From: a virus | Direction: 5' to 3' (one strand) | DNA: 20,551 bases | IMG/VR virus record: IMGVR_UViG_3300043775_000683 | Coordinates: 1 to 20,551 of that record | Part shown: in pieces, positions 721 through 20,551 of the stretch | How the letters are laid out: every line of letters begins with the position of its first letter | Numbering within the stretch: the stretch's first letter is position 1 | Notes under the pieces: generated by a model | Database searches by the model: none | What the model saw: only the letters and a program-made list of their open reading frames with translations | Told to the model about the DNA's origin: nothing | Program-made: the position numbers and the translations under genes

Positions 721-1089
721 TCATCGATTCTCGTTGATTTCGATTTCCGTGCGTTCTTGGGTTTTGGTTTTAACCTTAACCTGTTTAAACTCGACTTCGA
801 TATCTTCTGGCGAGTCGTCGCGGATAAGTTTAGCGTAGCGTAGTTGGTCAATAATTGGCTTACAGCCTCCTGCGTAGTTGTCGCAGTCGAGTGGTCTGCA
901 AGAATATCTTGTAATGCGGATGTGAGTGCGTGTGCTGCGAGTTTCTTTTCCTTGAGATAGTGACTCCAGTGTTTGTTGAGTAGAGTGTTGAGCGAAGGTG
1001 TCAGGTAGCCTTTTAGTATTAGGTGAATATGATCCATCTGGTTGTTCAGTGTAGCCAAGTTTTTTTAAAAAATTAATACTAATGCTCAT
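721..1089 (-). CDS. rusA: RusA-like Holliday-junction resolvase
   Basis: A 122-residue protein, about the length of E. coli RusA (120). The diagnostic C-terminal half has the acidic centre: LDCDN at residues 67-71, KPIIDQLR at 77-84 and the DD pair at 91-92 (LIRDDSPEDIEV). These match the RusA pattern of Asp-rich metal ligands and a conserved lysine. RusA-type enzymes are dimeric endonucleases that resolve branched DNA; in phages they trim recombination and replication intermediates before packaging. Its start overlaps the stop of the upstream PD-(D/E)XK gene as ATGA (1086-1089), implying coupled translation. The N-terminal half is less conserved, with no catalytic residue missing as far as can be seen. 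Confidence 0.82.
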   Translation of the reverse strand: MSISINFLKKLGYTEQPDGSYSPNTKRLPDTFAQHSTQQTLESLSQGKETRSTRTHIRITRYSCRPLDCDNYAGGCKPIIDQLRYAKLIRDDSPEDIEVEFKQVKVKTKTQERTEIEINENR

Positions 1090-1562
1090 ACATGATTCAG
1101 CAGTTCAAAGTTATTCTTTGGTGACCCTGTCCAATTGATTGACGATTGTCCGCATATGTCTTTAAGTCTGTATAATGCCCAACAGTTTTGTTCGGCAATG
1201 TGTGCTGCGATGATGTCAAAGTCTCCTTCATTGTAATTTGTGTAAAGAGAGCCTTTTTCATTTGGATTTGCTTGGCACGATGGTTTTTTTGATGATGTTG
1301 ATATTTGCCATGAGTTTGCCGTCCTTGCTACTCCTTTTTTAACTTGAACACTTATTGGTTTTGATGGTGATTTCCATATTACGCAATCTGCTTTTTGGCT
1401 ATGTCCGATTGGCATAAACACATCAAATCCACTTTTTGCAGCTTCAGCAATAAACATAATTTCAGATATTGTTCCAGTTTTTGCATTAGTATTACCTTTT
1501 TTCTCATCGCATTCCAAAGAATACAGCGACAAGTCAAACAAGGTGTCTTGCAATTCAACCAT
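1086..1562 (-). CDS. PD-(D/E)XK endonuclease-family protein
   Basis: A 158-residue protein with the spacing of a PD-(D/E)XK nuclease core. It has Glu34 in a helix (SEIMFIAEAAKSGF), then a strand (DVFMPIG), Asp59 (KADCVIW) and the QVK motif at 73-75 (ISVQVKKG). This resembles small archaeal/phage endonuclease-like proteins of the PDDEXK group often seen beside restriction or repair genes. The substrate is unknown; Holliday-junction or flap cleavage and host-DNA degradation are all possible. Translation is coupled to the RusA-like gene by a 4-nt overlap, so two nucleases are made together. The start follows an ATAAATAA leader without a Shine-Dalgarno and is preceded by a structured 204-nt gap. 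Confidence 0.62.
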   Translation of the reverse strand: MVELQDTLFDLSLYSLECDEKKGNTNAKTGTISEIMFIAEAAKSGFDVFMPIGHSQKADCVIWKSPSKPISVQVKKGVARTANSWQISTSSKKPSCQANPNEKGSLYTNYNEGDFDIIAAHIAEQNCWALYRLKDICGQSSINWTGSPKNNFELLNHV

Positions 1563-3019: not shown

Positions 3020-3251
3020 CATTATTTTCAAAAAAAGAATCCCACTCGGAAACCGCATCAACACTGGGTTTCCTGTCGCATTGGTCATCTGAACCGCTTG
3101 TAGACTCGCTGAAATATTTTTCGTAGATTATTCTTGCCTCTTGATAGTTTTTCTCAGCGAGCGCAAATCGAGACTGGATGCCGCTCTCCCAGATTACAGT
3201 GCTTGTTTCAAGGAGCATGAGGCAATGCTCGTATGCGTCATCTTTATTCAT
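3006..3251 (-). CDS. Hypothetical protein, 81 residues, downstream-coupled to the helicase
   Basis: A helical first half (MNKDDAYEHCLMLLE through YQEARIIYEKYF) is followed by an acidic Ser/Asp tail ending WDSFFENNVDPF. The start at 3251 is well supported: GAGGAG lies 4 nt upstream and the ATG overlaps the helicase stop by 8 nt. The acidic, aromatic-ending C terminus (NVDPF) is again SSB-tail-like and could be a protein-docking tip; this is inference. No family is recognised. Confidence 0.68.
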   Translation of the reverse strand: MNKDDAYEHCLMLLETSTVIWESGIQSRFALAEKNYQEARIIYEKYFSESTSGSDDQCDRKPSVDAVSEWDSFFENNVDPF

Positions 3252-4536
3252 TGATCTCCTCGAATCGTGAAATGTCTCCGCGCATTTTGACTGGAACAAA
3301 TACATCTCGTTGACCCCGGCGATTCTTGTCTATTCGGATGCGCGATGTTGGTTGCGCTGGTGCTGTCTTGCGGAAGCTCTGAGCCTCCTTCTTCTTGTCG
3401 TCTGGATGGGAGATGATGAGGAGAAAATCTGTGTGATGGCCGATTGCTCTACTCTCACGAACTGCTCCATCGTCGTTGAGTTGTGATGCAGTCAAGACCA
3501 CGGAATTTGTTTTCAGTGCCGTCAGCTTCAGTCTGCGTGATAATTCACTCACTGCCTGCTCCCTATTGTCGGCGTTAGGCATCGTTACAATTTGTAGGTA
3601 ATCGACCACAATTACCTCTGCCTTGCCAAGTGATGCGAGTCTCTGAGCTTCAGCAATGATCTCGCCCACTTCAGACAGGTCATCGCGGATAGTGAGTTTC
3701 ATCTTCATCAATTGTCCGATTGCGTTTGATACGTCCTTGGCAGTGGCAACACTGCGCCAGTCTGTGACTGATGATAGTTCCCGCATTGGAACAATTGTCT
3801 TTCCAATCAGATTGCAAGCCATTCGTTGCAGGATGGACTTCGCAGGCATTTCAAGGCTGAAGATGGTGACCGCCTTGCCATCGAGTAGTGCGTTGAGTGC
3901 GGCTTGGTAGAGGAGGATTGATTTGCCTCCACTGGTCTGCGCTCCAACAACCATCATCTCGCCACGTCTCATGCCGCCACCGAGGAGTTTGTCAACCTTC
4001 GGAATTCCAGTCTTGAAGTTTTCGAGTGGTGCATTGTTTTCCAAATCATCGAGGAAATCGCTCAGATGCTCCTTTACGCCTTTGCACATGGTTTCTGGCT
4101 GGATTGCATTAGACAGCGATTCCGCGATGGCAGAAAGGTCAGCACGCATCGCGCAAACGTCATCGTGTGCATCGTCCCAAGTCTTGATGGCATCTCTGTA
4201 GCCTTTTGCCCTGAGAAGTTGTGAGCGATAATCAGCGGCAGTCTCAACGCACATAGCTCCGGGCGAGATGAACATCGTCTTTAGAATTTCAATCACTCCT
4301 TCTCTGCCTCCAGCGGCATTAAGTTTGCCAGTTGTTTCGAGGTCAGAAATTGCTCCAAGCATATTTGTTGCTCCAGTGCGCTGATAAACACGTTCTAATG
4401 CGCTAAATATCAGCTTATGTTGTTCAAATGCGAACAGGTCAGAGTGCCATGCGAGGTGCGGTAGAACCTCTGGATCGATTGCGATGAGTGATAGTGCCGC
4501 CTTTTCTGCGGTGACTGCGATCGGTAGTGTTTTCAT
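3244..4536 (-). CDS. dnaB: DnaB-type replicative DNA helicase
   Basis: A 430-residue hexameric-helicase homologue. The N-terminal DnaB domain occupies about residues 8-115 (EKAALSLIAIDPEVLPHL, FSALERVYQRTG). A linker leads to the RecA-like domain. Its motifs are Walker A GAQTSGGKS (198-206), FSLEMPAKSILQRMA (226-240), Walker B VIVVDYLQ (308-315), TASQLNDDGAVRESRAIGHHTD (349-370) and a C-terminal RIDKNRRGQ (401-409). It unwinds DNA 5'-3' ahead of the fork using ATP. The start at 4536 is preferred over 4581 because its ATG overlaps the upstream stop as ATGA (4533-4536) and the family begins just before EKAAL. No DnaG-like primase or DnaC loader gene is visible in the window, so priming and loading may use host proteins or the DUF1376 protein. 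Confidence 0.93.
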   Translation of the reverse strand: MKTLPIAVTAEKAALSLIAIDPEVLPHLAWHSDLFAFEQHKLIFSALERVYQRTGATNMLGAISDLETTGKLNAAGGREGVIEILKTMFISPGAMCVETAADYRSQLLRAKGYRDAIKTWDDAHDDVCAMRADLSAIAESLSNAIQPETMCKGVKEHLSDFLDDLENNAPLENFKTGIPKVDKLLGGGMRRGEMMVVGAQTSGGKSILLYQAALNALLDGKAVTIFSLEMPAKSILQRMACNLIGKTIVPMRELSSVTDWRSVATAKDVSNAIGQLMKMKLTIRDDLSEVGEIIAEAQRLASLGKAEVIVVDYLQIVTMPNADNREQAVSELSRRLKLTALKTNSVVLTASQLNDDGAVRESRAIGHHTDFLLIISHPDDKKKEAQSFRKTAPAQPTSRIRIDKNRRGQRDVFVPVKMRGDISRFEEINE

Positions 4537-4754
4537 ACTAAAGCTAAATAGCGTTTTGGGTTTTGTCTTACTGTTTCGCATATTTCACATTCGCAATATA
4601 GCCAGTCTTTCCTATCTCCTTCGTTCGCATCAACTGTGGCTCCGCAAGGCCAAACTGATACATCGCTTCCTAAATAACAGGCAACATCGAAACCATTAAA
4701 TCCAATGCTGTCCTTATCAATTCCCCACGATCTGTGTAATTTTATTTTTTTCAT
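4533..4754 (-). CDS. Hypothetical cysteine-containing protein, 73 residues
   Basis: This protein begins MKKIKLHRSWGIDKDS and carries cysteines at 26, 37, 54, 56 and 59, with the cluster YCECEIC suggesting a possible metal site. No family is recognised. It is translationally coupled to the helicase by a 4-nt overlap. Its leader AATACATACATG abuts the Mom-like gene stop at 4762. It may assist the helicase, but only position supports that. Confidence 0.62.
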   Translation of the reverse strand: MKKIKLHRSWGIDKDSIGFNGFDVACYLGSDVSVWPCGATVDANEGDRKDWLYCECEICETVRQNPKRYLALV

Positions 4755-4761
4755 GTATGTA

Positions 4762-5442
4762 TTAAAAAAATGATGTCTGAATATTTATTTCTGCGTTTGC
4801 ATTGTATCTCTGACTAACTCCCTTTGGATAGGATAAAATTTTATATTTTAAAGATTTCATCAATCTTTTCTTTTGTGTTCTCGACCCACATAAAAAGACA
4901 TATCGATGCTTTCTGTCTCTTTCGACATAATAAACATTCTCATGTCCATATTTTTCACGAAGGAACTCAATTCTTGATGGGTGTCCTCTTCCTTCATCTC
5001 CAATTGTGGTATGGTGTTTGTGTTCCATGCCTTTTACCATTGGGTCTTTGAATGCCGAAGAAAGACCAGTGTATATGAAATTTGTGGCTTGATAAACATA
5101 ACCAACATGACCTTTCCCGCTGTCTGCATAGGACACTACAATGGTTGGATTAGGAAGCATTGTTAAAGAGCGTCCAACTAATATCGATGCAACATTCTTT
5201 TTGTTTTCGCAACATAGCCTGTTCAATTCCAAAACAGATTGCGAGTAGTCTTTGCCACATACACCATCGCGCAATGTTGATGAAAGAGGAGTGCCATATG
5301 TTACAACTCCGATTATTTCATTATCAATAAAAGCACCGAAAGCATATGAAATCGGACATAGTCTACGTGCGTAATGTCTAAATAACAACCAAGGTTCAGC
5401 TTCGCTTGATGGTATTGGTCTGACCACAATATTATTTTTCAT
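4762..5442 (-). CDS. mom: Mom-like DNA adenine modification enzyme (GNAT-fold)
   Basis: A 226-residue protein, close to Mu Mom (about 231), with the conserved series of phage Mom homologues. These are VRPIPSSEAEPWLLFRHYA (7-25), ISYAFG (31-36), IIGVVTYGTP (43-52), LELNRLC (71-77), VVSYADSGKGHVGYVYQATNF (102-122), VKGMEHKH (136-143), RKHRY (177-181) and a KYKILSYPKG tail. Mu Mom converts adenine to an N6-(methyl)carbamoyl form that blocks many restriction enzymes; it has an acetyltransferase-like fold and unusual chemistry. The same role is inferred here. It starts one base after the stop of the DUF1376 gene without a Shine-Dalgarno. A com-like zinc-finger activator, which Mu needs for mom translation, is not obvious, so regulation must differ. 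The fold and family are well supported; the exact base product is not. Confidence 0.83.
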   Translation of the reverse strand: MKNNIVVRPIPSSEAEPWLLFRHYARRLCPISYAFGAFIDNEIIGVVTYGTPLSSTLRDGVCGKDYSQSVLELNRLCCENKKNVASILVGRSLTMLPNPTIVVSYADSGKGHVGYVYQATNFIYTGLSSAFKDPMVKGMEHKHHTTIGDEGRGHPSRIEFLREKYGHENVYYVERDRKHRYVFLCGSRTQKKRLMKSLKYKILSYPKGVSQRYNANAEINIQTSFF

Positions 5443-5443
5443 G

Positions 5444-6163
5444 TCAACAAGCCCGTGAGTATGTCATCTCGGCCTGTTGTTGCTTGGGTTTGACCCAATC
5501 AGCTTTGAAGCTCTGCCATCCACGGGTGACGCATTCTGTCAGTGCATCGTTGAGTGTCAAGCCTGCAAGTTCAGATTCTTTTTCAATCATGTTCAATGCA
5601 GTTTCAGTGAGTGGTGCGCGTTTGGCTTTACGAACTGCAAGGAAATCATTCCAGACTTGATCGTCAACAGTGAATGGTTGAATTGCTGTAGTAGTTTTCT
5701 TTTCTGTAGTAGAAATAGAAGATGTAGAAGAAGACTGAAGAAGAAGTGTTGCCTTTTGGTTGATACCATTTGGCAAGCATTCTTCAACCACCGTTGCAAG
5801 GGTGCTTGAACCACCCTTGAGACTTTTCCTCATTTCAGCAGACTTTTTGCCGCCTTCAGCACTCTTCCTTGCCCATTCATTTTGTTTCACGATTTCCTGC
5901 TGTAGTCTTTCGTGAACCAACAACGAACCATTTTCTGGGTGTGGTTGGAACATGGTTGCAACGGTGGTTGCAAGTGTGGTTGAAGCACCCTTACCAATCA
6001 AGCGTGCGATTTGTTCTGGATTGGAAGGTATGCTGCCATGTTGCCAACAATAGCAAAGCAATCTCAAGTATGCGCCTTCTTCTTCAAGTGTCATCAATGC
6101 CACCCTCTGAGAGCCTAAATAATCTGCGGGGTAGAACTGGAATGCTGGTCGTTTAATTTTCAT
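5444..6163 (-). CDS. DUF1376 phage replication protein (YdaU-like)
   Basis: A 239-residue protein. The N-terminal DUF1376 domain covers about 1-95: FQFYPADYLGSQRVALMTLEEEGAYLRLLCYCWQHGSIPSNPEQIARLIG, the usual Y-DYL, GAY-LL and W pattern. A lysine-rich EWARKSAEGGKKSAEMRKSL segment (96-115) follows, then a Ser/Thr-rich linker and a C-terminal helical domain (DQVWNDFLAVRKAKR ... GWQSFKADWVKPKQ). DUF1376 proteins sit next to helicase or helicase-loader genes in many phages, and some have primosome-like architecture, so a DNA-binding initiator or loader role is likely. The start at 6163 follows TTAGATT directly and lies just after a structured terminator-like leader, so expression may be gated there. 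Confidence 0.78.
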   Translation of the reverse strand: MKIKRPAFQFYPADYLGSQRVALMTLEEEGAYLRLLCYCWQHGSIPSNPEQIARLIGKGASTTLATTVATMFQPHPENGSLLVHERLQQEIVKQNEWARKSAEGGKKSAEMRKSLKGGSSTLATVVEECLPNGINQKATLLLQSSSTSSISTTEKKTTTAIQPFTVDDQVWNDFLAVRKAKRAPLTETALNMIEKESELAGLTLNDALTECVTRGWQSFKADWVKPKQQQAEMTYSRAC

Positions 6164-6289
6164 AATCTAAAAAAAGACCCGCCTCAAGTGATACTCCCAC
6201 AAGGAATCCTGTGGGCATGAGGCAGGCCAAATTTGTTTTAGTGTTTAGCGATGGTATCAAACATCGACCTCAATCGAGGTAGCACTACT
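6164..6289 (-). promoter_or_regulatory. Structured leader RNA: three consecutive stem-loops
   Basis: This 126-nt gap holds an ordered set of inverted repeats on the minus strand. The first is ACCTC/GAGGT with a 4-nt loop (6267-6271 with 6276-6280). The second, immediately adjacent, is CGATG/CATCG with an 8-nt loop (6249-6253 with 6262-6266). An A-rich spacer follows, then a two-tier stem that ends in a U-tract (separate entry). No ORF fits here. The array is consistent with a folded leader or attenuator controlling the DUF1376 gene; a ligand or protein partner cannot be inferred. Confidence 0.5.
6169..6228 (-). terminator. Terminator-like two-tier hairpin directly before the DUF1376 start
   Basis: The outer stem TGAGGC/GCCTCA (6218-6223 with 6181-6186) extends discontinuously with GG/CC and encloses an inner 6-bp stem CCCACA/TGTGGG (6196-6201 with 6210-6215). 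Reading on the minus strand, seven T residues follow (6169-6175). That is the arrangement of an intrinsic terminator, yet only 5 nt separate the T-tract from the next start codon. It therefore probably lowers read-through to a controllable level rather than ending an operon. Confidence 0.55.
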
Positions 6290-6589
6290 TTAAGCGTATC
6301 TTGCGCCTTTGTAAAGCGAAATCCTGCGAGCGTGTGCGTTGTCGCGTTTAGCAATGACATCGCCAATGCGGATAATCAATCCCGTTTTTGTAGCGGCATT
6401 GAATAATGCTCCAAATGCGTTAGGATGGTTTGGGGGATCACCAACAAGTCCTCTGACATCTTCCGCATGAAATGTCATGCCGCTGGATGCCATTGCTTTT
6501 ATTATAGCCAGAGCAGCATCTTTCCAATCGTCTGGAGTGTTGTCTATCACCTTGGAACATCCTTTTTCTTTTAACGTATAGCCGCTCAT
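6290..6589 (-). CDS. Hypothetical protein, probable small winged-helix type, 99 residues
   Basis: The pattern resembles a phage family with an N-terminal helix (DDWKDAALAIIKAMASSG), a recognition-like segment (TFHAEDVRGLVGDPPNHPNAFGALFNAATKTGLI) and a C-terminal HARRISLYKG. The central part fits a winged helix, suggesting DNA binding, but this is by pattern only. The start has a strong ribosome site, AGGAGGG six bases upstream, and overlaps the preceding stop by 4 nt (6586-6589). Confidence 0.68.
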   Translation of the reverse strand: MSGYTLKEKGCSKVIDNTPDDWKDAALAIIKAMASSGMTFHAEDVRGLVGDPPNHPNAFGALFNAATKTGLIIRIGDVIAKRDNAHARRISLYKGARYA

Positions 6590-11711: not shown

Positions 11712-11912
11712 TTAGTCTTCTCTGTCAAGTTCTGTGTCGAATTCAGCTAACTCATACATTTCGTCCATGTCACCATTGGCATAGTCTTCTGTTAGCTGGA
11801 TAATTTTTTCTTCTGATATTTTTTTGGGGTTGTAGAATACATATTCATCTTGGACGGGAATCATCTCCCATCCTTCTGGCCCCTCTTCTTTGTCAGTTAC
11901 AAGTATGTTCAT
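11712..11912 (-). CDS. Hypothetical acidic protein, 66 residues
   Basis: It begins MNILVTDKEEGPEGWEMIPVQ and is strongly acidic throughout the second half (LTEDYANGDMDEMYELAEFDTELDRED). No family is recognised. The ATG overlaps the giant gene's stop by four bases. It may be a small partner or an acidic DNA mimic; only composition suggests the latter. Confidence 0.6.
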   Translation of the reverse strand: MNILVTDKEEGPEGWEMIPVQDEYVFYNPKKISEEKIIQLTEDYANGDMDEMYELAEFDTELDRED

Positions 11913-14900
11913 TTTAGTATTAATGGTATTTTTGATTTCTTCATTGTCCCAACAATGGTTTCTTTGCTGCCTTCTCTAACTGTTTTCTTGGGATGACTGC
12001 TTGCGTAGTCAGGAAAAAGTTTAACTGGATCAGCAGGCGTTTCAAGAATAAAATTATTGGCATCCTCTGGCCCAAGCATCATCCAGTCGTAGGAAGGATG
12101 TATTCTGAATTGTGGATTTTTCAAGAATTGATCACGAAGATATCTTTCAGTGGCACTCATTTTAGCCTCTTGCTTTGGATCATTGCCAGTGTAAATAGCA
12201 AATGCATCCATGTCTTTTGACAACTGAACCGCCGCAACAATATCCAAGTTTTTGCCTTTATTGAAATCCATTGATTCTAACAAGCGTTGCGAGATTGAGG
12301 GAATAAATGGTATGCCACTAATCCTGTCCATTGCGCTACCACGTTGGTTAAATGTGAATTTAGACGCTTCTTCTGCAAATGTTTTGTTTTTATATTTAGC
12401 AACAATTTTTTTATACCAATCTTGATCCTTGTATTTGCTAATATGCTCATCAAATGCTTTATCAAAAGCAGTGATATTTCCCTTTGTTGCTTGGGATTTC
12501 ATTGATCCAAGTGCATTTAAAAAATCTACACTTGGTTTATATTTTTCAATTTTTTCTGATTCAAATCTTTCAATTAAATTAAATTCAGATTGAGTTATTT
12601 CATTATCTTTTAATAACTTTTGAGCTTTCTTGTAACGATTTAAATGTTTAGCTGGATTTTTTGCACCAAGCTCAAGAATAACGTGCAACGCATCAAGTCG
12701 TTCTTGCGGTATCGATGTAGACATTGAATCAACTTCAGACATTACATCTTGAACAAATTTGCGATTGCTCTTATGCGCTTTTTCTTTCATCAACTGGATA
12801 AGTGCCATTCCAGAAGTTGTATTGTTTATAATATTTTTGGCTCTTGTAACAAAGGCGGCAGTCATATTTGCCCAAACAGGTTTAAATCCTCTTCCATCTG
12901 GCAATTTAGCTACAGCTTGATTTGAAATAAGAAAAGGATGCAATGGGCCACCCATATTTGATCCTCTTGTATTGTGCCTATCAGCTTCCAGCATTGCAAC
13001 TTGTTCTCCTTCAATTGACGATATGTTAGCAACATTTGGAAGAACAGTTGTTTTTGGGTCTAATTCGTATTCAATAACCCTGCCATCCTCTGTGGGATTT
13101 GTCGCTATTTTAAAATATCCTTTTTCTGGAGTTTGAGTTGGCAATTTTGCGCCAACAAAATGCGTGAAATCTGGTTCAATTTCTCTCTCTAATTCTTTTT
13201 TTGCTGTCTTTGGTTTTTTACCTTCTTTGCGCTCTGGCATGAACTGAATTCCACCTATCATTTCGGAACTTTGTAGTTTTTCCGAGATAATAGGTTCCAT
13301 CTCCACCATGTTACTGTGTAGAACACCCCTATCAGCATTAAACTTGTCTTCCTCACTGGTTGCCTCTTTAAGTTGCCCAGTTGCCTCGGCAATACGATAT
13401 GCCTCTTCACGATCTACAACGCGCCCAGTGTCCGTTTTGAACCCGTAGTAACGCGATTCGCGATCTGTTTGCTCGTCTGGCGCATTTGGATTAGCTGCCT
13501 TGTGGTTTACGCCTTCACGAACCTCACCAGTGCGAGGATCGGTATATGTTGCGGAAACTATGCGTTCTTCCGTTGGACGCTCTGGCATGAATTGCAACTG
13601 ACCACCTTTTACTTTGCCTGCCATTTCTGGAGTGATGTTTACTTTCCAGATTGGTGTTGATGATCTCTTTTCAGCTTCCGCCCATGCTTCATCGGCAGTT
13701 GCAAATCTTGCCAATACTTCTGTAGAATCACTAAACTCAAGTCGATATGGCAATGGTTGACTATCTTTGTTTACTTTATATTGAGCTTCAGATTGATCAA
13801 TTGCATCCTTCTCAACCTTGCCACCCATCTTGGCTACATACTTGCCAATCTCTTTAGGCAGGATTTGATCGTAGAATCCTTTCATGCCTTCGCCTCCAAC
13901 TTTAAGGTCAAGACCAGATATTTGCCTCTCCATGTCTTCATCTGGTGTTTGTTCTACAAGTTTTTGAGCAACTTCTTTTCCAACATAATCCGCAAGTTTG
14001 TCAGATGTTATGTTGGATTCTTGAATAACTGTTCTTTTCTGACTTGGATCATAAGCAGTCAGCATTTTTGTATCTTCATTCCATACAACTTTGCCAATCT
14101 GCTTACTCAAATCGTAGCGTTCAGCCTGCGTGTCTCCAGTAGTCCAACCAATCCATTGTTTGCCAGACTCTACCGCATCACGCAATGCGCGTTTGAAGAG
14201 TTGAACAGACCAGTCTTTGCGGAATGGTGCGTCTGGAATTCCTTCGCCTTCAACTTTTGCGCCTAACTCGTTCCACCTTGCTTTATCTTCTGCGTTAAAT
14301 CGAACAACTCCACCTTCCTTCCTTGCCTTGTCTTCAAGTGCTTTTATTTCGGATCGTTCAGATTCTGTTAATGCATACCCCTTCTCCCTTCCCGCCTGAT
14401 GCCTGTCAGACTGCAATTCCTCGATGAATAATCCATCGTTGCCTTCAGCGTCAGTGCGTTCGTTCAAGCGCATATGCGCTACATAGTTTGGAACATTTGG
14501 GAAATGAGAAGAAGTGTATATTCCTTTCGCTACACTTCCTCCCCCTGCGGTTGTGTCGTAACTGGAATCTCTTGCCGCTTCAAGTTGAGCTTGCTCCTCC
14601 TCTGTTCTATTGATTGCATAATCTTCACCATACTTATCTTTCAGTTTTTTAAGCAGGCGAGAAAACTCGTTTACTGGAGGAGGCATTGCCATCACAACTT
14701 CACGATAGTTTTCACCACTGGGGAGTTGGTATTGTCCAAATTTCGTAGGAATATTTTTGCTCAATGCGCCTTGTAACTCTTTAGGCAAGTCTTCAAAATC
14801 TACTTCATCTCCATCTTTATCAATAAAAGTTGTTTCTTCGTATTCTTTTTGAATTTCAATGCCATATTTTTGAGCGATTTTATTAGCTTCCGTATTTTCA

Positions 14901-17900
14901 CCGAGTGTTGCTTCCTCAAACTTAACAGCACCTTCATTGCGAAGGTAATCCATAACTTTGTCTTTTGGAACCTTGCCTTGATTCTCTGTTGCAAGACGAT
15001 CAATTTCATTAAGCACTCCAGACCATTTCAGTTCTTCAGCTTTTACGTTTTGGGGATTGCTGATAATAGCTTTCAACTGATCTGGTGATGCAAACTTTCC
15101 TTGCACTTTCTGATCTATTGTTTGTTGCAATCCAGAATAGAATCCACGTTCTGGAGTTGGGAAACGCTCTGTTGGACGTTCCGGCATGAACCTCGCAGAT
15201 ATTCCACCACTCCTTGGTGCTTGAGTTTCTTGTTCTGCTTGAATTGTTTCTGCTGCTTGTTCTTGCGCTTGCAACTCCAGTTGCTGATTTATTTTACCCA
15301 GTTCGTTTTCAAGTGCTGGAATAATCGGACTGCGCCCTCCGTCAACGTAGAGTTGTTCAAGTTTGGACGAAAGCATTTTGGCAATGTCTTGCGGCGGCAT
15401 AGTTTCATCCTGTGCGTCAAGAATAGCTAACTCTGCCTCGGTCTCGGCATCAATGTCGGAAACGATTTCTTCTGGTTCCAGAGAGGCTATATTTTCAGGG
15501 TCGAACATTGAGACGATCTGAATTCTTGGAATCTGATCTTGCCCCTGCACCAACTGCAATGACTCGGTGGGGAGCAAATCGTCCATCTGTCGCAATTCGC
15601 TTTCAAGCGCGTTGATTTCGCCAGTTGCCATTGCCTGACGAACCCGTGTGGCAGTAACGCTACCATCGAAGCGGTTTTGGACTTCCTCGGCAGTCATCGG
15701 TGCTGCCATCGGATTAACCGCTGGCATATAGTTTGTGGTTAGGTAGCCATAGTTGATTGGCAGCTTTTGCGATGGTGACTCCTCAAAATTATTGATGCGA
15801 TCAAGCCGACGAGAACGAATAACGATGTCGAGATTATCTTTTCCTCGCGCCCTTGGAAGTGTGCTGCGTTCAGGATTCGATTGCTTTGTCTCGGCATTGT
15901 AAGCGTTAAAAAGATCGTTGATCTTGTTCTTCATCTTACCTGCGATGTATGCGTCTGGATGTAGTCCAGTCTCGCCTTTTTCGCCTCTCGCATGATTGTC
16001 CAAATACTTCACCACAGAGTCCCAGAATGCGCCTGTATCGCCATTCCAAGGTTGCAGGTTCGTTGGCTTTTTATCTGCCCATGCCTGCATCTTGTCATAA
16101 AGGCGACTGACCGAAATTGTGGTAAGCGCAAAGTTGCCATCCTTCGTTAGTTGGAATCCGATTGGAACTTCATCACGAATTTTTGGCGAAAGTGCTTTGT
16201 ATTTCCCGTTGAGAAGTGCCGCTTGGTATTCCATCACCACGCGAGTGCCGTCATTCCGCGCCATAAGTTCATTGAAAAACTTCGTCATGCGCTTCAAATT
16301 TGGCGATACCACCTCGTTTGGCAATGCCATGAATGCCTCGATTTGAGAGGGAGACATAACCCCTCGATAATTGCCATTGCCAATGTCTGAAAGTCTAACT
16401 CCAGAACCATCGTCCTTCGCGGAATCAATCGCAGTCTGGATAATCTCTGTCCGCTTCCTTGCGCGAGCTTTCATCTCACGATTTGTCAGGATGATTGGCG
16501 CCCCGTTTGATTTGCGAGCGATTCGCGTGTCAACTTCAAATGTCGTGCCATCTGGCATCGATCCAAAAGTTATCTCTGGCCCAAGCGTGACCACATTGCC
16601 ATCAGCATCCACCAACTGCCCGCCCTGCGTCCTGTATACATCAACGAATGGATCAATTTTTGCGCCAGCAGGAACGACGATTTCAGTAACGCTACCATCG
16701 GGCGCAGTCGCCTTGATGATCTGCTCTTTCTCAAAAAAGTCTGCGTGTCGATATTTATTTTGAAGCGCAATACTGCCAAGAACCTTAGTCAACGGAATAT
16801 CAGGTTCGTCAGATTCGCGTGACTGCTGGATAGTCATTGTGCCGTCAAAATCCTTCAAGCCTCTTTGGTATTGGCGCATCATTGCAAGCGTCTCTGGCGA
16901 CATCCTCGCATCAAGAACAGACGATACTGCACCGATATTATCAAAGATAACCCCGTTCCTACGGAGTGCCTCTTTCAATTGTTTCAACCTGCCACTTTTG
17001 GTCTTGACCTCCAACCAGTCCATGACATTGCGTCCAACATCATCGAGCGATGCGCGAGTGCCGCCTGCATACTCACCAGTTGCAGCAGCAGTCTCTGCCA
17101 AAATTTCGTCTTTGATGTAAGCTCGCATCTTCTCGGAGTCGCCACCAAATTGAGCGTAGAAACTCGCTCCATTGTCGTTTGGCGACATGAGATTCGCGTA
17201 TCGAGCAGCATAACGATTCAAGTCCTCATCAGAGTAAATTCCCTGCTGATAAACTTCGGTGGTTCCATCGTCGTTTTTAATTTTCTGATCGAACAATTGC
17301 CCGCGCAACGGAGCAAGCATCTTGTTCACTTCTCCAAACTGCTGCACTGCGTGTTGCACCTCATGCTGAAGTGTGTGGCGTATATTGAATCCTTGATCCG
17401 ATAGATGCTTAATAAGGTCTGCGTTAATAACAGCAGTTGCTCCTTGTTGGTTGATTCGACGTAAATGCGGAGGAACAAATTCCGTTGAATTCGGATCAGT
17501 ATTGTCTTCTTGAATAGCAAATCCTCGTGCAGATTTTGCGCCTTCGACATCGTTCTGGAACTTCTGCAAAAGTTGCCGTGACTCGGTTAGTTTCTGGCTA
17601 TCGGTCTCGGTCAAACTTGGAATTCCAGTCAGCAAATTTACAGTTGCTTCTGCCTGCCTCAAAGAATCTCCATAAAGGTCACGAAAGAATTGGTCAGCAT
17701 TGTTAGGATCAAGGACGGCAATGTTCACGCCGCGAAGTCCAGCAACTCCACCTGTTGATTGGGCAAGATCATAAGCGTCAATGAACGCGAGTTGAGTCTG
17801 TCGCAATGCCTCTGCCTGCGTTTCTGGAGTTGTCTTGGAGAGTGCTTCTTTTTGCTTCAGGAACCCGTCAATCTGCTTTTGTTTGAATGCGACATCCTCT

Positions 17901-19573
17901 GGGTCTATCTGTGCATCTCTGCTTTTTTCAAGATTTGCAATTGTGGCATCAACTGCTGCCTTGCGCCTTTCAATGTTAGCAACGTCAGTAATGTTTTGTT
18001 GAATCTCTGGCGATGCCTGCGCCATGAATCGTTTAATATCCGCATCCTCATCGCGGCGATATGCGGCAGGGTCAGGCGTAACAAGATTGCTGATCTTTTC
18101 AGCCATTGTTGTGCGAGGATCAATTAGTCCACCAACTCGCTCAAATGATCTTGTTCCCGCCATACTGCCAATGCCAAAACCAGTGCCAGATACAAACCCA
18201 AGGTCTTCTGCGGTCTCGATGTCGGGCAGACCCATTGCCACATTCAATGCGGCAGCATTAATGCCCGGCTGAATAAGAGCGTTCGATTGGCGAATCGTCC
18301 AGTCGGCTAACTTTGCTCGCGTCACCCCACCTTTACCTTGCGCTCCAAAAAGTTTTTTTGTTAGGTCACTGGAGTCCACTGCCTGTCCCGCTCGCTCAAA
18401 CATTCCCCTTCTTCCTGCCGTGCCGCCAACATCGACTTGTTTAGTGATGTCCTTGATCACTCTTGCAGTTGCAGAAACAGGTTTTGCAACGCCAACTACA
18501 GGCATAATTGCAGTGTTGACAGTTCCCTTGATCCAAGTGTCTGGATCATTTATTGTATACTCTCCAATTTTTCTTGCGCCAGTTTGAAGAAGTTCTGTGC
18601 CTTGAAGAACTTTATTTGCTGCGAATTCTGTTCCTCCAGCAACTTTTGAAATGCCTCTTGCCGTAAGATCAGTTGCTTTATTAAAAACTGGAGCGGTTAT
18701 TTTGGAAAGAGGCTTTAAAACTGCTTTGCTCAACCTACCGCCACCGGGAATAGCCACAGGAGAAACAAACTCTCCCAATGTAGCAACCTGCTCATTGATC
18801 TGGTCTTTGGTGAGACCCTGATCAAGCATTGTTTGGATGTAGTCTTGCTTTACATTCTCAACTTCTTTAGGAGACAAACCCATCTTCTTTGCCTCATACT
18901 CTACATATCCTTGAATCAACGGATTTTGAGAAAGAAGTGCAGCAACTCGATCTGGATTTTGCTCTACTTCTTGAGCTTCCAACTGCCGCATTGTCTGCCT
19001 GTTCTGCCATGCTCGAAATCGTTCCTCGTCGCTCTTGCCAAGTAGTTTGTCAGTTGTAGCACTTCCAAACATCCCAAATCGGACAGCAGCATTTACTGTT
19101 TCTTCAATATCTTTTGCTGCACCGACCCCAAGAGACCTAATCGTTTCTTCTCGTTCTTTAAATACTTTCTTCGCCTCTTCTGAGTCTAAACGATTGTATC
19201 CACCAGAAAGCGCAAAAGCGGCAGGTTGAACAACTGCTTTGTTGGCTAACTCAACTGCACCTGTTGCAGTTTGCCCAATAATGTCTGCTGCTGCTGGGAT
19301 AAATGCTCCTACCGCACCAGATACTTTGTCCAGAAAACTACGCTCGTCATCTGCTTTGAAAAGAATTCTTTGTTGCTTATCTGTAAGTTTTTGACCAGTA
19401 GATTGTATTTCTTTTAATTTATCTACATCTTCAATCTTTGTAAGACTATCATCGAAAGATTCTTCAGGAGGACTCCATTGTGGCTTTTTTGCATCATCAA
19501 AAGATTCTTCTGGTGGACTCCATTGCGATTTTTTTGTATCGTCAAAGGACTCTTCAGGTGGTTGCCATGCCAT
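11909..19573 (-). CDS. Giant phage polyvalent protein (2554 residues)
   Basis: A multi-module protein of the kind described as phage 'polyvalent proteins', proposed to enter the host with DNA. In order: three copies of a W-x-PPEESFDD repeat (3-42), an alanine/glycine-rich, partly hydrophobic helical part (about 85-500), and coiled-coil-like segments (about 520-690). A zincin-like HEVQH motif follows (His737, Glu738, His741; TLQHEVQHAVQQFGE), with an acidic DEILAETAA further on as a possible third ligand. Then come mixed regions, a conserved YVAHMRLNERTDAEGNDG ... FIEELQSDRHQAG segment (about 1700-1726), a GMKGFYDQILPKEIGKY segment and an ITPEMAGKV boundary. Finally there is a GGPLHPFLISNQAV module near the C terminus. 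FMPER recurs at about 1463, 1995 and 2111, marking module ends. It follows the virion-type gene by one base and ends in ATGA. Confidence 0.82.
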   Translation of the reverse strand: MAWQPPEESFDDTKKSQWSPPEESFDDAKKPQWSPPEESFDDSLTKIEDVDKLKEIQSTGQKLTDKQQRILFKADDERSFLDKVSGAVGAFIPAAADIIGQTATGAVELANKAVVQPAAFALSGGYNRLDSEEAKKVFKEREETIRSLGVGAAKDIEETVNAAVRFGMFGSATTDKLLGKSDEERFRAWQNRQTMRQLEAQEVEQNPDRVAALLSQNPLIQGYVEYEAKKMGLSPKEVENVKQDYIQTMLDQGLTKDQINEQVATLGEFVSPVAIPGGGRLSKAVLKPLSKITAPVFNKATDLTARGISKVAGGTEFAANKVLQGTELLQTGARKIGEYTINDPDTWIKGTVNTAIMPVVGVAKPVSATARVIKDITKQVDVGGTAGRRGMFERAGQAVDSSDLTKKLFGAQGKGGVTRAKLADWTIRQSNALIQPGINAAALNVAMGLPDIETAEDLGFVSGTGFGIGSMAGTRSFERVGGLIDPRTTMAEKISNLVTPDPAAYRRDEDADIKRFMAQASPEIQQNITDVANIERRKAAVDATIANLEKSRDAQIDPEDVAFKQKQIDGFLKQKEALSKTTPETQAEALRQTQLAFIDAYDLAQSTGGVAGLRGVNIAVLDPNNADQFFRDLYGDSLRQAEATVNLLTGIPSLTETDSQKLTESRQLLQKFQNDVEGAKSARGFAIQEDNTDPNSTEFVPPHLRRINQQGATAVINADLIKHLSDQGFNIRHTLQHEVQHAVQQFGEVNKMLAPLRGQLFDQKIKNDDGTTEVYQQGIYSDEDLNRYAARYANLMSPNDNGASFYAQFGGDSEKMRAYIKDEILAETAAATGEYAGGTRASLDDVGRNVMDWLEVKTKSGRLKQLKEALRRNGVIFDNIGAVSSVLDARMSPETLAMMRQYQRGLKDFDGTMTIQQSRESDEPDIPLTKVLGSIALQNKYRHADFFEKEQIIKATAPDGSVTEIVVPAGAKIDPFVDVYRTQGGQLVDADGNVVTLGPEITFGSMPDGTTFEVDTRIARKSNGAPIILTNREMKARARKRTEIIQTAIDSAKDDGSGVRLSDIGNGNYRGVMSPSQIEAFMALPNEVVSPNLKRMTKFFNELMARNDGTRVVMEYQAALLNGKYKALSPKIRDEVPIGFQLTKDGNFALTTISVSRLYDKMQAWADKKPTNLQPWNGDTGAFWDSVVKYLDNHARGEKGETGLHPDAYIAGKMKNKINDLFNAYNAETKQSNPERSTLPRARGKDNLDIVIRSRRLDRINNFEESPSQKLPINYGYLTTNYMPAVNPMAAPMTAEEVQNRFDGSVTATRVRQAMATGEINALESELRQMDDLLPTESLQLVQGQDQIPRIQIVSMFDPENIASLEPEEIVSDIDAETEAELAILDAQDETMPPQDIAKMLSSKLEQLYVDGGRSPIIPALENELGKINQQLELQAQEQAAETIQAEQETQAPRSGGISARFMPERPTERFPTPERGFYSGLQQTIDQKVQGKFASPDQLKAIISNPQNVKAEELKWSGVLNEIDRLATENQGKVPKDKVMDYLRNEGAVKFEEATLGENTEANKIAQKYGIEIQKEYEETTFIDKDGDEVDFEDLPKELQGALSKNIPTKFGQYQLPSGENYREVVMAMPPPVNEFSRLLKKLKDKYGEDYAINRTEEEQAQLEAARDSSYDTTAGGGSVAKGIYTSSHFPNVPNYVAHMRLNERTDAEGNDGLFIEELQSDRHQAGREKGYALTESERSEIKALEDKARKEGGVVRFNAEDKARWNELGAKVEGEGIPDAPFRKDWSVQLFKRALRDAVESGKQWIGWTTGDTQAERYDLSKQIGKVVWNEDTKMLTAYDPSQKRTVIQESNITSDKLADYVGKEVAQKLVEQTPDEDMERQISGLDLKVGGEGMKGFYDQILPKEIGKYVAKMGGKVEKDAIDQSEAQYKVNKDSQPLPYRLEFSDSTEVLARFATADEAWAEAEKRSSTPIWKVNITPEMAGKVKGGQLQFMPERPTEERIVSATYTDPRTGEVREGVNHKAANPNAPDEQTDRESRYYGFKTDTGRVVDREEAYRIAEATGQLKEATSEEDKFNADRGVLHSNMVEMEPIISEKLQSSEMIGGIQFMPERKEGKKPKTAKKELEREIEPDFTHFVGAKLPTQTPEKGYFKIATNPTEDGRVIEYELDPKTTVLPNVANISSIEGEQVAMLEADRHNTRGSNMGGPLHPFLISNQAVAKLPDGRGFKPVWANMTAAFVTRAKNIINNTTSGMALIQLMKEKAHKSNRKFVQDVMSEVDSMSTSIPQERLDALHVILELGAKNPAKHLNRYKKAQKLLKDNEITQSEFNLIERFESEKIEKYKPSVDFLNALGSMKSQATKGNITAFDKAFDEHISKYKDQDWYKKIVAKYKNKTFAEEASKFTFNQRGSAMDRISGIPFIPSISQRLLESMDFNKGKNLDIVAAVQLSKDMDAFAIYTGNDPKQEAKMSATERYLRDQFLKNPQFRIHPSYDWMMLGPEDANNFILETPADPVKLFPDYASSHPKKTVREGSKETIVGTMKKSKIPLILK
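19448..19567 (-). repeat. Three 45-bp (15-residue) tandem repeats at the giant protein's N terminus
   Basis: The unit W-x-PPEESFDDxKKxQ occurs at residues 3-17, 18-32 and 33-42 (the last shortened). The DNA is similar as well, differing mainly at third positions, so expansion by slippage is plausible. Short acidic/aromatic repeats like this often act as docking or translocation tags. Confidence 0.75.
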
Positions 19574-19574
19574 A

Positions 19575-20551
19575 TTATTTAGTTCCCGGTCTTCCGTTAA
19601 AGATAAATTTTTGCCCCGATTTTAATGCATTAAATTCTGATTGTGTTTTAACTTCAACACGATTTTCTGGAGTTTGAATAGGTTGAAATTTAGTTGGTTT
19701 TTCAACAGTAATTAATTCTTTTTTATCTGCTTCAAGTCCATCAATAAGTTTATTTGCAGATGTTTTAATACTTTTAAGATTCCCTAAGAATGTAGCTTCA
19801 TCAAGGTCTGGATCAACCGATCCTTTAAGCGATGTCAGCATAGATAATTCAGAATCTGACAATGCACCAAGAGAACCTCCTGCTGCCTTTAATGCAACTA
19901 ATTCATCAAATCCAACAATTCCCTTAACTGTATCTACTAATTTTCTAACTGTCCTTGCATCATTTGAAAAAGGATTATACTGCATAATCCCTGAAATTCC
20001 ACCAGCACCTGCTAAAAGATATCCGGGTGCTATTTTCTCAATTTTTTCTATTGTAGTTTTTAAAACTTTTGCTTTTTCAATGTTATTATCAAGTGTTGCT
20101 ACTTGTTGTTTAACAGGAGGCTTAGGTAGATATGTTGTAGTAAGATTGCCGTCTTTATCTGTAACTTGTTTTATTACCATGCCTTCAGGAACAGTTTCCA
20201 TTGGAGATGGTGCATCTTCCGTGATTTCTACACGATAAATTCTTTTGCCCTTACCTGCGTCAATACCATTAACTTTAGCCTTAACTCCTAATTGTTGTTC
20301 AAGAATATTTTTTGCCATCCTTGCGTCAGCAGGACTCATGAAGGGTTGACCAGTCAAATCGCTTTCTACTCTGTATCGATATTCTGATTCAGTCTCAGGA
20401 ACTGCTTGAGCAAGCACTGGTTCAGAAGGTTGTTGGGTTGGAAGAGCAGGCTCAACTGGGGTAACTCCAGCAAGAGGTTTATCTTCTGCTCCAGAAACAG
20501 GAACAAGTGGGACTGTTACATCTTGAAGAGTTACTTTGCCTACTTCTTCTG
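19575..20551 (-). CDS. Probable virion/internal protein, partial (start outside the window)
   Basis: The frame is open to the right edge, so the true start is upstream; the GTG at 20417 is only an internal codon. At least 324 residues are visible. A proline-rich, low-complexity region (PVEPALPTQQPSEP) is followed by MSPADARMAKNILEQQLGVKAK, a DGNLTTTYLP stretch and a long helical part. Near its end, VALKAAGGSLGALSDSELSMLTSL resembles a motif seen in phage structural and internal virion proteins (GALS-x-x-E). A charged tail ends in GRPGTK. It lies one base upstream of the giant gene, so both may be late virion components. Confidence 0.6.
   Translation of the reverse strand, partial: EEVGKVTLQDVTVPLVPVSGAEDKPLAGVTPVEPALPTQQPSEPVLAQAVPETESEYRYRVESDLTGQPFMSPADARMAKNILEQQLGVKAKVNGIDAGKGKRIYRVEITEDAPSPMETVPEGMVIKQVTDKDGNLTTTYLPKPPVKQQVATLDNNIEKAKVLKTTIEKIEKIAPGYLLAGAGGISGIMQYNPFSNDARTVRKLVDTVKGIVGFDELVALKAAGGSLGALSDSELSMLTSLKGSVDPDLDEATFLGNLKSIKTSANKLIDGLEADKKELITVEKPTKFQPIQTPENRVEVKTQSEFNALKSGQKFIFNGRPGTK

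Follow-up and report, generated by a model that had tools for sequence, protein, structure and literature searches.

A Mom-family gene in an exchangeable slot of a phage replication operon with a structured leader RNA

In phages of the Mu type, mom is a late gene that lies just downstream of com (PF10122) or is overlapped by it, and it is held in check by an inhibitory RNA fold at its start codon and by an upstream GATC cluster (Dam/OxyR control). The window analyzed here is a 20,551-base linear phage fragment, to which all window coordinates refer, and it carries a mom-like gene inside a replication operon. This arrangement raises the question of what such a gene does among replication genes and how its expression is governed there. 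Anti-restriction modifiers tend to be recorded as single genes, and here we considered the gene together with its operon and the corresponding loci of related contigs. Our reading, to which we assign a probability of about 0.8, is that the gene encodes a Mom-type GNAT base modifier directed against restriction and is one interchangeable occupant of a slot between the DUF1376 and dnaB genes, in an operon that begins with a structured leader RNA. The genes and the slot are listed below, with the evidence for each in parentheses.

5444 to 6163, minus strand: gene for a DUF1376/O-like or primosomal replication protein of 239 aa, the upstream border of the slot (profile matches, relatives)
4762 to 5442, minus strand: mom, predicted Mom-family (GNAT) DNA-modification enzyme of 226 aa (Pfam, PHROGs, PDB, model, alignment)
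4533 to 4754, minus strand: orf73, a cysteine-containing ORF of 73 aa, the second slot gene (relatives)
3244 to 4536, minus strand: dnaB-like replicative helicase gene, the downstream border of the slot (profile matches, conserved start)
4533 to 5443, minus strand: exchangeable slot from the DUF1376 stop codon to the dnaB start codon, holding mom and orf73 in the window (relatives)

The mom gene and its protein

The mom product matched the Pfam Mom family (PF25680) over profile positions 2 to 202 of 202 (5e-35; 121.4 bits against a cut-off of 27.1), the PHROGs family phrog_1384, "Mom-like DNA modification protein" (2e-52), and, in a sequence search, the solved Mu Mom chain 8bv8 (4.5e-10). The SYAD, YQATNF, KHRY, and ELNRL blocks, which the original prediction had picked out, were all present and are conserved among Mom relatives. 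An AlphaFold model built from 14 aligned relatives (mean pLDDT, 81) has a GNAT fold, and its top Foldseek matches were two chains of Mu Mom (8bv8_A; E value, 1.3e-11; TM score, 0.65), followed by GNAT acetyltransferases. The rmsd between the model and 8bv8 was high, 5.2 Å, at 21% identity. The PDB title of 8bv8 describes Mu Mom as "inactive mutant S124A"; based on an alignment with D108 Mom, S124 of Mu/D108 corresponds to S86 of the window protein, at a position that is serine in 17 of 18 Mom proteins and threonine in the other. H23, Y24, E72, R75, D107, and Y117 are also conserved and fit the family pattern in the alignment. Following the Mu literature, we take the H-Y, D, and Y positions of Mom to serve iron and acetyl-CoA chemistry. 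A comparison with the mom gene of relative L003 gave a dN of 0.074 and a dS of 0.89, and this low dN/dS (about 0.08) indicates strong purifying selection on window Mom. Based on these matches and on the model, we conclude that the window gene is truly related to phage Mu mom, as had been predicted, with the active-site serine in place. Its product probably modifies DNA bases (adenine, by homology to Mu), and the anti-restriction role originally suggested for it is likely, judging from sequence.

The original prediction had also drawn attention to the lack of a com partner. Com (PF10122) indeed matched nothing in the window, a 20.5-kb fragment of the phage, or in its relatives, and no com ORF overlaps the mom start, while the positive controls, D108 and Pseudomonas phage PAN70, both matched, with com just upstream of mom. 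This lack turned out to be nothing special. Of 15 Mom phages searched over their full length, only 2 had com; 12 had no match even at an E value of ≤0.01, and Arthrobacter phage Martha had a single match below threshold, elsewhere in its genome. In several unrelated phages, Mom adjoins or lies near helicase or DNA polymerase genes, and Mom without com beside replication genes is the normal arrangement outside Mu-like phages. Other Mu-like controls at the mom start were not supported by counts and folds. The upstream 300 nt hold one GATC against 1.2 expected, and thus no cluster, and a fold at the start reached a z score of −2.1 in the window only; the corresponding folds in L002, L003, and L095 were weak and different, and none was conserved. 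The gene is also neither late nor terminal in position, lying as it does between the DUF1376 and dnaB genes, and gene order makes its early or constitutive expression plausible.

Mom proteins about 70% identical to that of the window were found in contigs with unrelated or distantly related neighbors and without a DUF1376 relative. Since these contigs are otherwise unrelated to the window, we conclude that mom moves alone. Contig L014 carries two different Mom genes about 2 kb apart (1096 to 1764 and 3790 to 4407; 70% and 39% identical to window Mom), and the same was seen in L015 and L016.

The slot between the DUF1376 gene and dnaB

A single base separates the DUF1376 stop (5444) from the mom start (5442), and mom lies in the replication operon, both as first described. 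The further description of mom as standing just before the helicase group was right in that dnaB is downstream, but orf73 is the gene that directly follows mom, and dnaB comes next. For dnaB, the start given by the longest ORF (4581) was discarded in favor of the conserved start at 4536. No Pfam or PHROGs match was found for orf73; a relative, 82% identical, is the sole occupant of the L075 slot.

We assembled 68 contigs, the window included, that hold both the DUF1376 C terminus and dnaB. They were drawn from Mom and DnaB searches, with 80 of 480 relatives kept from the latter. The slot was occupied in 36 contigs and empty in 32, where all tallies count contigs rather than independent events, and the TET-associated glycosyltransferase (TAGT) and 334-aa groups each consist of near-identical contigs. 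The contents were as follows.

Mom: 4 contigs, the window, L002, L003 (86% identical), and L095 (45% identical)
C5-cytosine methyltransferase: 10 contigs, at least three types
N4/N6 methyltransferase: 2 contigs
ABC-GNAT protein: 1 contig (L028)
TET-associated glycosyltransferase (PF20691; E value, 1e-30): 7 contigs
334-aa protein without family assignment: 6 contigs
Small ORF only: 6 contigs
Nothing: 32 contigs

Recognizable DNA-base-modifying enzymes of five families filled 24 of the 36 occupied slots, and proteins without an assigned function filled the other 12. The junctions are exact, running from the stop codon of one gene to the ATG of the next. The clearest single case of exchange is L023, which is nearly identical to the window in DnaB (98%), recB (96%), g6586 (100%), and the DUF1376 protein (94%) and has a C5 methyltransferase where the window has mom and orf73. 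The gap between the DUF1376 gene and dnaB is thus an exchangeable DNA-modification slot, suggesting that these phages disguise their DNA chemically and swap the disguise as one swaps a cartridge.

Genes of other kinds may enter the slot as well, because a third of its occupied copies hold proteins without an assigned function. Possibly, then, it is a general site for small accessory genes in which DNA-modifying enzymes are merely common passengers, with small ORFs (orf73, s72, s86, and s88) and the 334-aa protein as ordinary contents. We consider this unlikely, though it deserves the most weight among the alternatives, since the remaining 24 occupants share one theme across five enzyme families, and several of the small ORFs sit beside modifying enzymes, as in L025 and the window. 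It is far less probable that the GNAT protein acetylates protein or RNA instead of DNA. Most GNAT enzymes do act on other substrates, and the Foldseek list for the model includes the tRNA cytidine acetyltransferase 2zpa; this reading must nevertheless contend with a Mom profile matched over its whole length, with Mu Mom as the best fold match and the Mom serine kept, and with a slot common to DNA methyltransferases and TET-associated glycosyltransferases. Slot position and homology therefore both point to DNA modification. We give just as little credence, or slightly less, to a functional pairing in which, for example, the DUF1376 protein recruits Mom to the replisome. The one-base spacing in the window and the same gene order in L002, L003, and L095 would fit such a pair, but in most relatives the DUF1376 gene occurs with no Mom, and the ∼70% identical Moms occur where no DUF1376 relative is present. 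A homolog search had been proposed to reveal whether the Mom-DUF1376 linkage is conserved; it is not, Mom being one of several occupants and present in 4 of 68 contigs.

The 334-aa slot protein (L127, 3752 to 4753; L143, 1501 to 2502) has a conserved C-terminal block (YSLYIEDKHTHENYAFMANRFYEAL) that by eye is reminiscent of glycosyltransferases, and sequence searches returned weak, unannotated relatives only, in Cronobacter phage S13 and Citrobacter phage Ci1. In L074, L075, L083, and L108, C5 methyltransferase-like matches upstream of the DUF1376 gene suggest a second modifier position. The DUF1376 gene itself keeps its C terminus and has an N-terminal part that is swapped between relatives (L003, 2982 to 3926; L024, 6146 to 7111; L025, 395 to 1243); the L003 version contains an extra stretch (SGFIYLMKRSSGHIKIGISQHPEKRAYK) that by eye resembles a GIY-YIG-type domain. 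Searching the DnaB alignment against 84,980 species genomes for prophages or hosts gave one match only, at 24% identity. Elsewhere in the window, a gene for a PD-(D/E)XK nuclease (1086 to 1562, minus strand; PF11645, 3e-8) precedes rusA-like and small-terminase genes and was found in some relatives and undetected in others. A 2,554-aa ORF (11909 to 19573, minus strand) probably encodes a large multidomain virion or injected protein, and 50,697 phage records yielded no relative of the adjoining 280-aa ORF (19575 to 20417).

The leader RNA of the operon

A structured RNA with the following parts precedes the DUF1376 gene.

6164 to 6294, minus strand: structured leader RNA of 131 nt, model R1 (133.6 bits in the window)
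6267 to 6280, minus strand: hairpin P2 (ACCTC-GATT-GAGGT), covarying (alignment, covariance)
6249 to 6266, minus strand: hairpin P3 (CGATG-TTTGATAC-CATCG), whose loop (6254 to 6259, TGATAC) pairs with a bulge of the terminator stem
6189 to 6194, minus strand: the pseudoknot bulge, GTATCA, located in the terminator stem on its 3′ strand and complementary to the loop of P3
6169 to 6228, minus strand: terminator-like bulged hairpin (6176 to 6228) followed by seven T (6169 to 6175)

The terminator-like hairpin is stable (−33 kcal/mol; z score, −4.8) and ends 5 bases before the DUF1376 ATG, so that the operon would be made only by read-through. Among 17 aligned relatives, 22 of 34 pairs had changed on both sides, with a covariation score of 0.53 compared to 0.05 to 0.07 when the pairing partners were slid. 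A search of 79 sources with a covariance model then recovered 54 copies, a single one at each locus and each just upstream of the operon. In these copies 20 of 28 nested pairs were doubly changed and 98.6% of cells were paired (score, 0.59, compared to 0.03 to 0.06 slid), figures that lean towards the model because the 54-copy alignment was fitted to it, as the 17-relative alignment was not. The P3 loop was complementary to the terminator-stem bulge over 6 to 7 bases in 54 of 54 leaders, in four classes of loop and bulge (TGATAC/GTATCA, TAAGAC/GTCTTA, TAGAACC/GGTTCTA, and TGAACC/GGTTCA). This is a direct count; the MAFFT alignment (A3) misplaced one P3-loop column and so shows helix 3 as 86% paired. 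Shuffling loops among bulges had little power, because there are only six distinct pairs.

The window had no Rfam match at the gathering score, the one match being at chance level on the opposite strand (E value, 1.7), and blastn found no copy of the leader in 50,697 phage records. A scan for sigma-70 and terminator consensus sequences gave counts no higher than those in shuffled sequence, and, being simple, the scan does not pick up the bulged stem of the leader. The leader RNA is absent from Rfam and well supported by covariation. It resembles attenuators and terminators in having a stable hairpin and a U run before a gene, with compensatory changes conserved.

What this RNA controls was approached through the relatives. 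The original prediction had offered the terminator-like leader as a possible control of mom, and in a strict form it would be a dedicated safety switch replacing com. The hairpin is real, and the operon that includes mom is indeed preceded by a strongly structured RNA. The same RNA, however, was found in 12 of 14 longer relatives, one copy to a genome, and all 14 lack Mom; among the operons that it precedes are some with a cytosine methyltransferase or a glycosyltransferase in the slot and some with an empty slot. It also stands beside the DUF1376 start, 720 nt from mom, whose own start has no conserved inhibitory fold. We therefore regard a mom-specific switch as the least probable of the alternatives, scarcely worth retaining; a leader kept whatever the slot holds is a structured RNA of the operon. 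At the other extreme, it might simply terminate the recombination genes upstream, like any other terminator, and regulate nothing. Its stem and seven T have the terminator form, but a plain terminator needs neither a covarying upstream hairpin nor a loop-bulge pseudoknot kept in every leader, and we rate this explanation as improbable, if less so than the switch. Instead, attenuation by the leader probably extends to the whole operon and is not confined to mom.

Proposed mechanism and comparison with known systems

The operon starts with the pseudoknotted leader, which ends in the terminator-like hairpin, and we propose that regulated read-through would lead into the DUF1376 gene, mom, orf73, and dnaB, presumably as one transcript. 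Expressed with the replication operon, the Mom-type GNAT enzyme would be made while phage DNA is copied and would modify bases, probably adenine, in the new DNA, which may then escape cutting by host restriction enzymes. Related phages have another modifying enzyme in the slot or leave it empty, and the precise fit of each cassette between a stop codon and the next start codon keeps the operon intact. More tentatively, at somewhat less than even odds, an undescribed pseudoknotted terminator RNA with at least four covarying classes, carried by a family of uncultured phages, may set the level of a single operon that couples the start of replication (DUF1376 and dnaB) to a replaceable modification cartridge. 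Replication and disguise would then be controlled together, and the disguise could be exchanged without rewiring.

Near-identical phages that differ in their DNA modifier at one precise position make possible a direct test of a change in DNA chemistry against host restriction. The slot could also serve as a finding tool, with the 334-aa protein, orf73, s86, and s88 as candidate new DNA-modification or helper proteins. The leader RNA, with its covarying loop-bulge pseudoknot, deserves study of its own.

Like Mom of Mu and D108 (PF25680; 8bv8), window Mom combines a whole-length family match and a predicted GNAT fold with the key serine (S124, equivalent to S86) and the H-Y, ELNR, D, and Y motifs. 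Unlike its counterpart in Mu, the window gene has no com, overlapping or otherwise, no conserved start-codon fold, and no GATC cluster, and its place is an exchangeable slot within a replication operon, not a late or terminal position. The Moms of phrog_1384 in Roseobacter phage CRP-902, Microbacterium phage LeeroyJenkins, and Salmonella phage SaI_NFG_5577 are likewise without Com and near helicase or DNA polymerase genes, but they are at most 51% identical to window Mom and have other neighbors and no DUF1376-dnaB slot. The TET-associated glycosyltransferase (PF20691), found in the same slot in seven relatives, differs from Mom in chemistry, as it needs a hydroxylated base. With Com/TIS control of mom translation in Mu, where an RNA structure at the mom start needs Com (PMC6483171), the leader shares an RNA structure upstream of a mom-containing message; unlike that system, it precedes all the genes of an operon and persists in relatives that have no mom. 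An ABC-ATPase-coupled GNAT DNA-modification system has been predicted in Tenacibaculum phage pT24 (PMC7824862), and the ABC-GNAT protein that fills the L028 slot shares 42% identity with the protein from pT24. As with Mom, its GNAT domain is predicted to modify DNA bases, although it belongs to another GNAT branch, carries an ATPase domain, and is absent from the window. The location of this relative in the same slot as Mom gives independent positional support to the predicted ABC-GNAT system.
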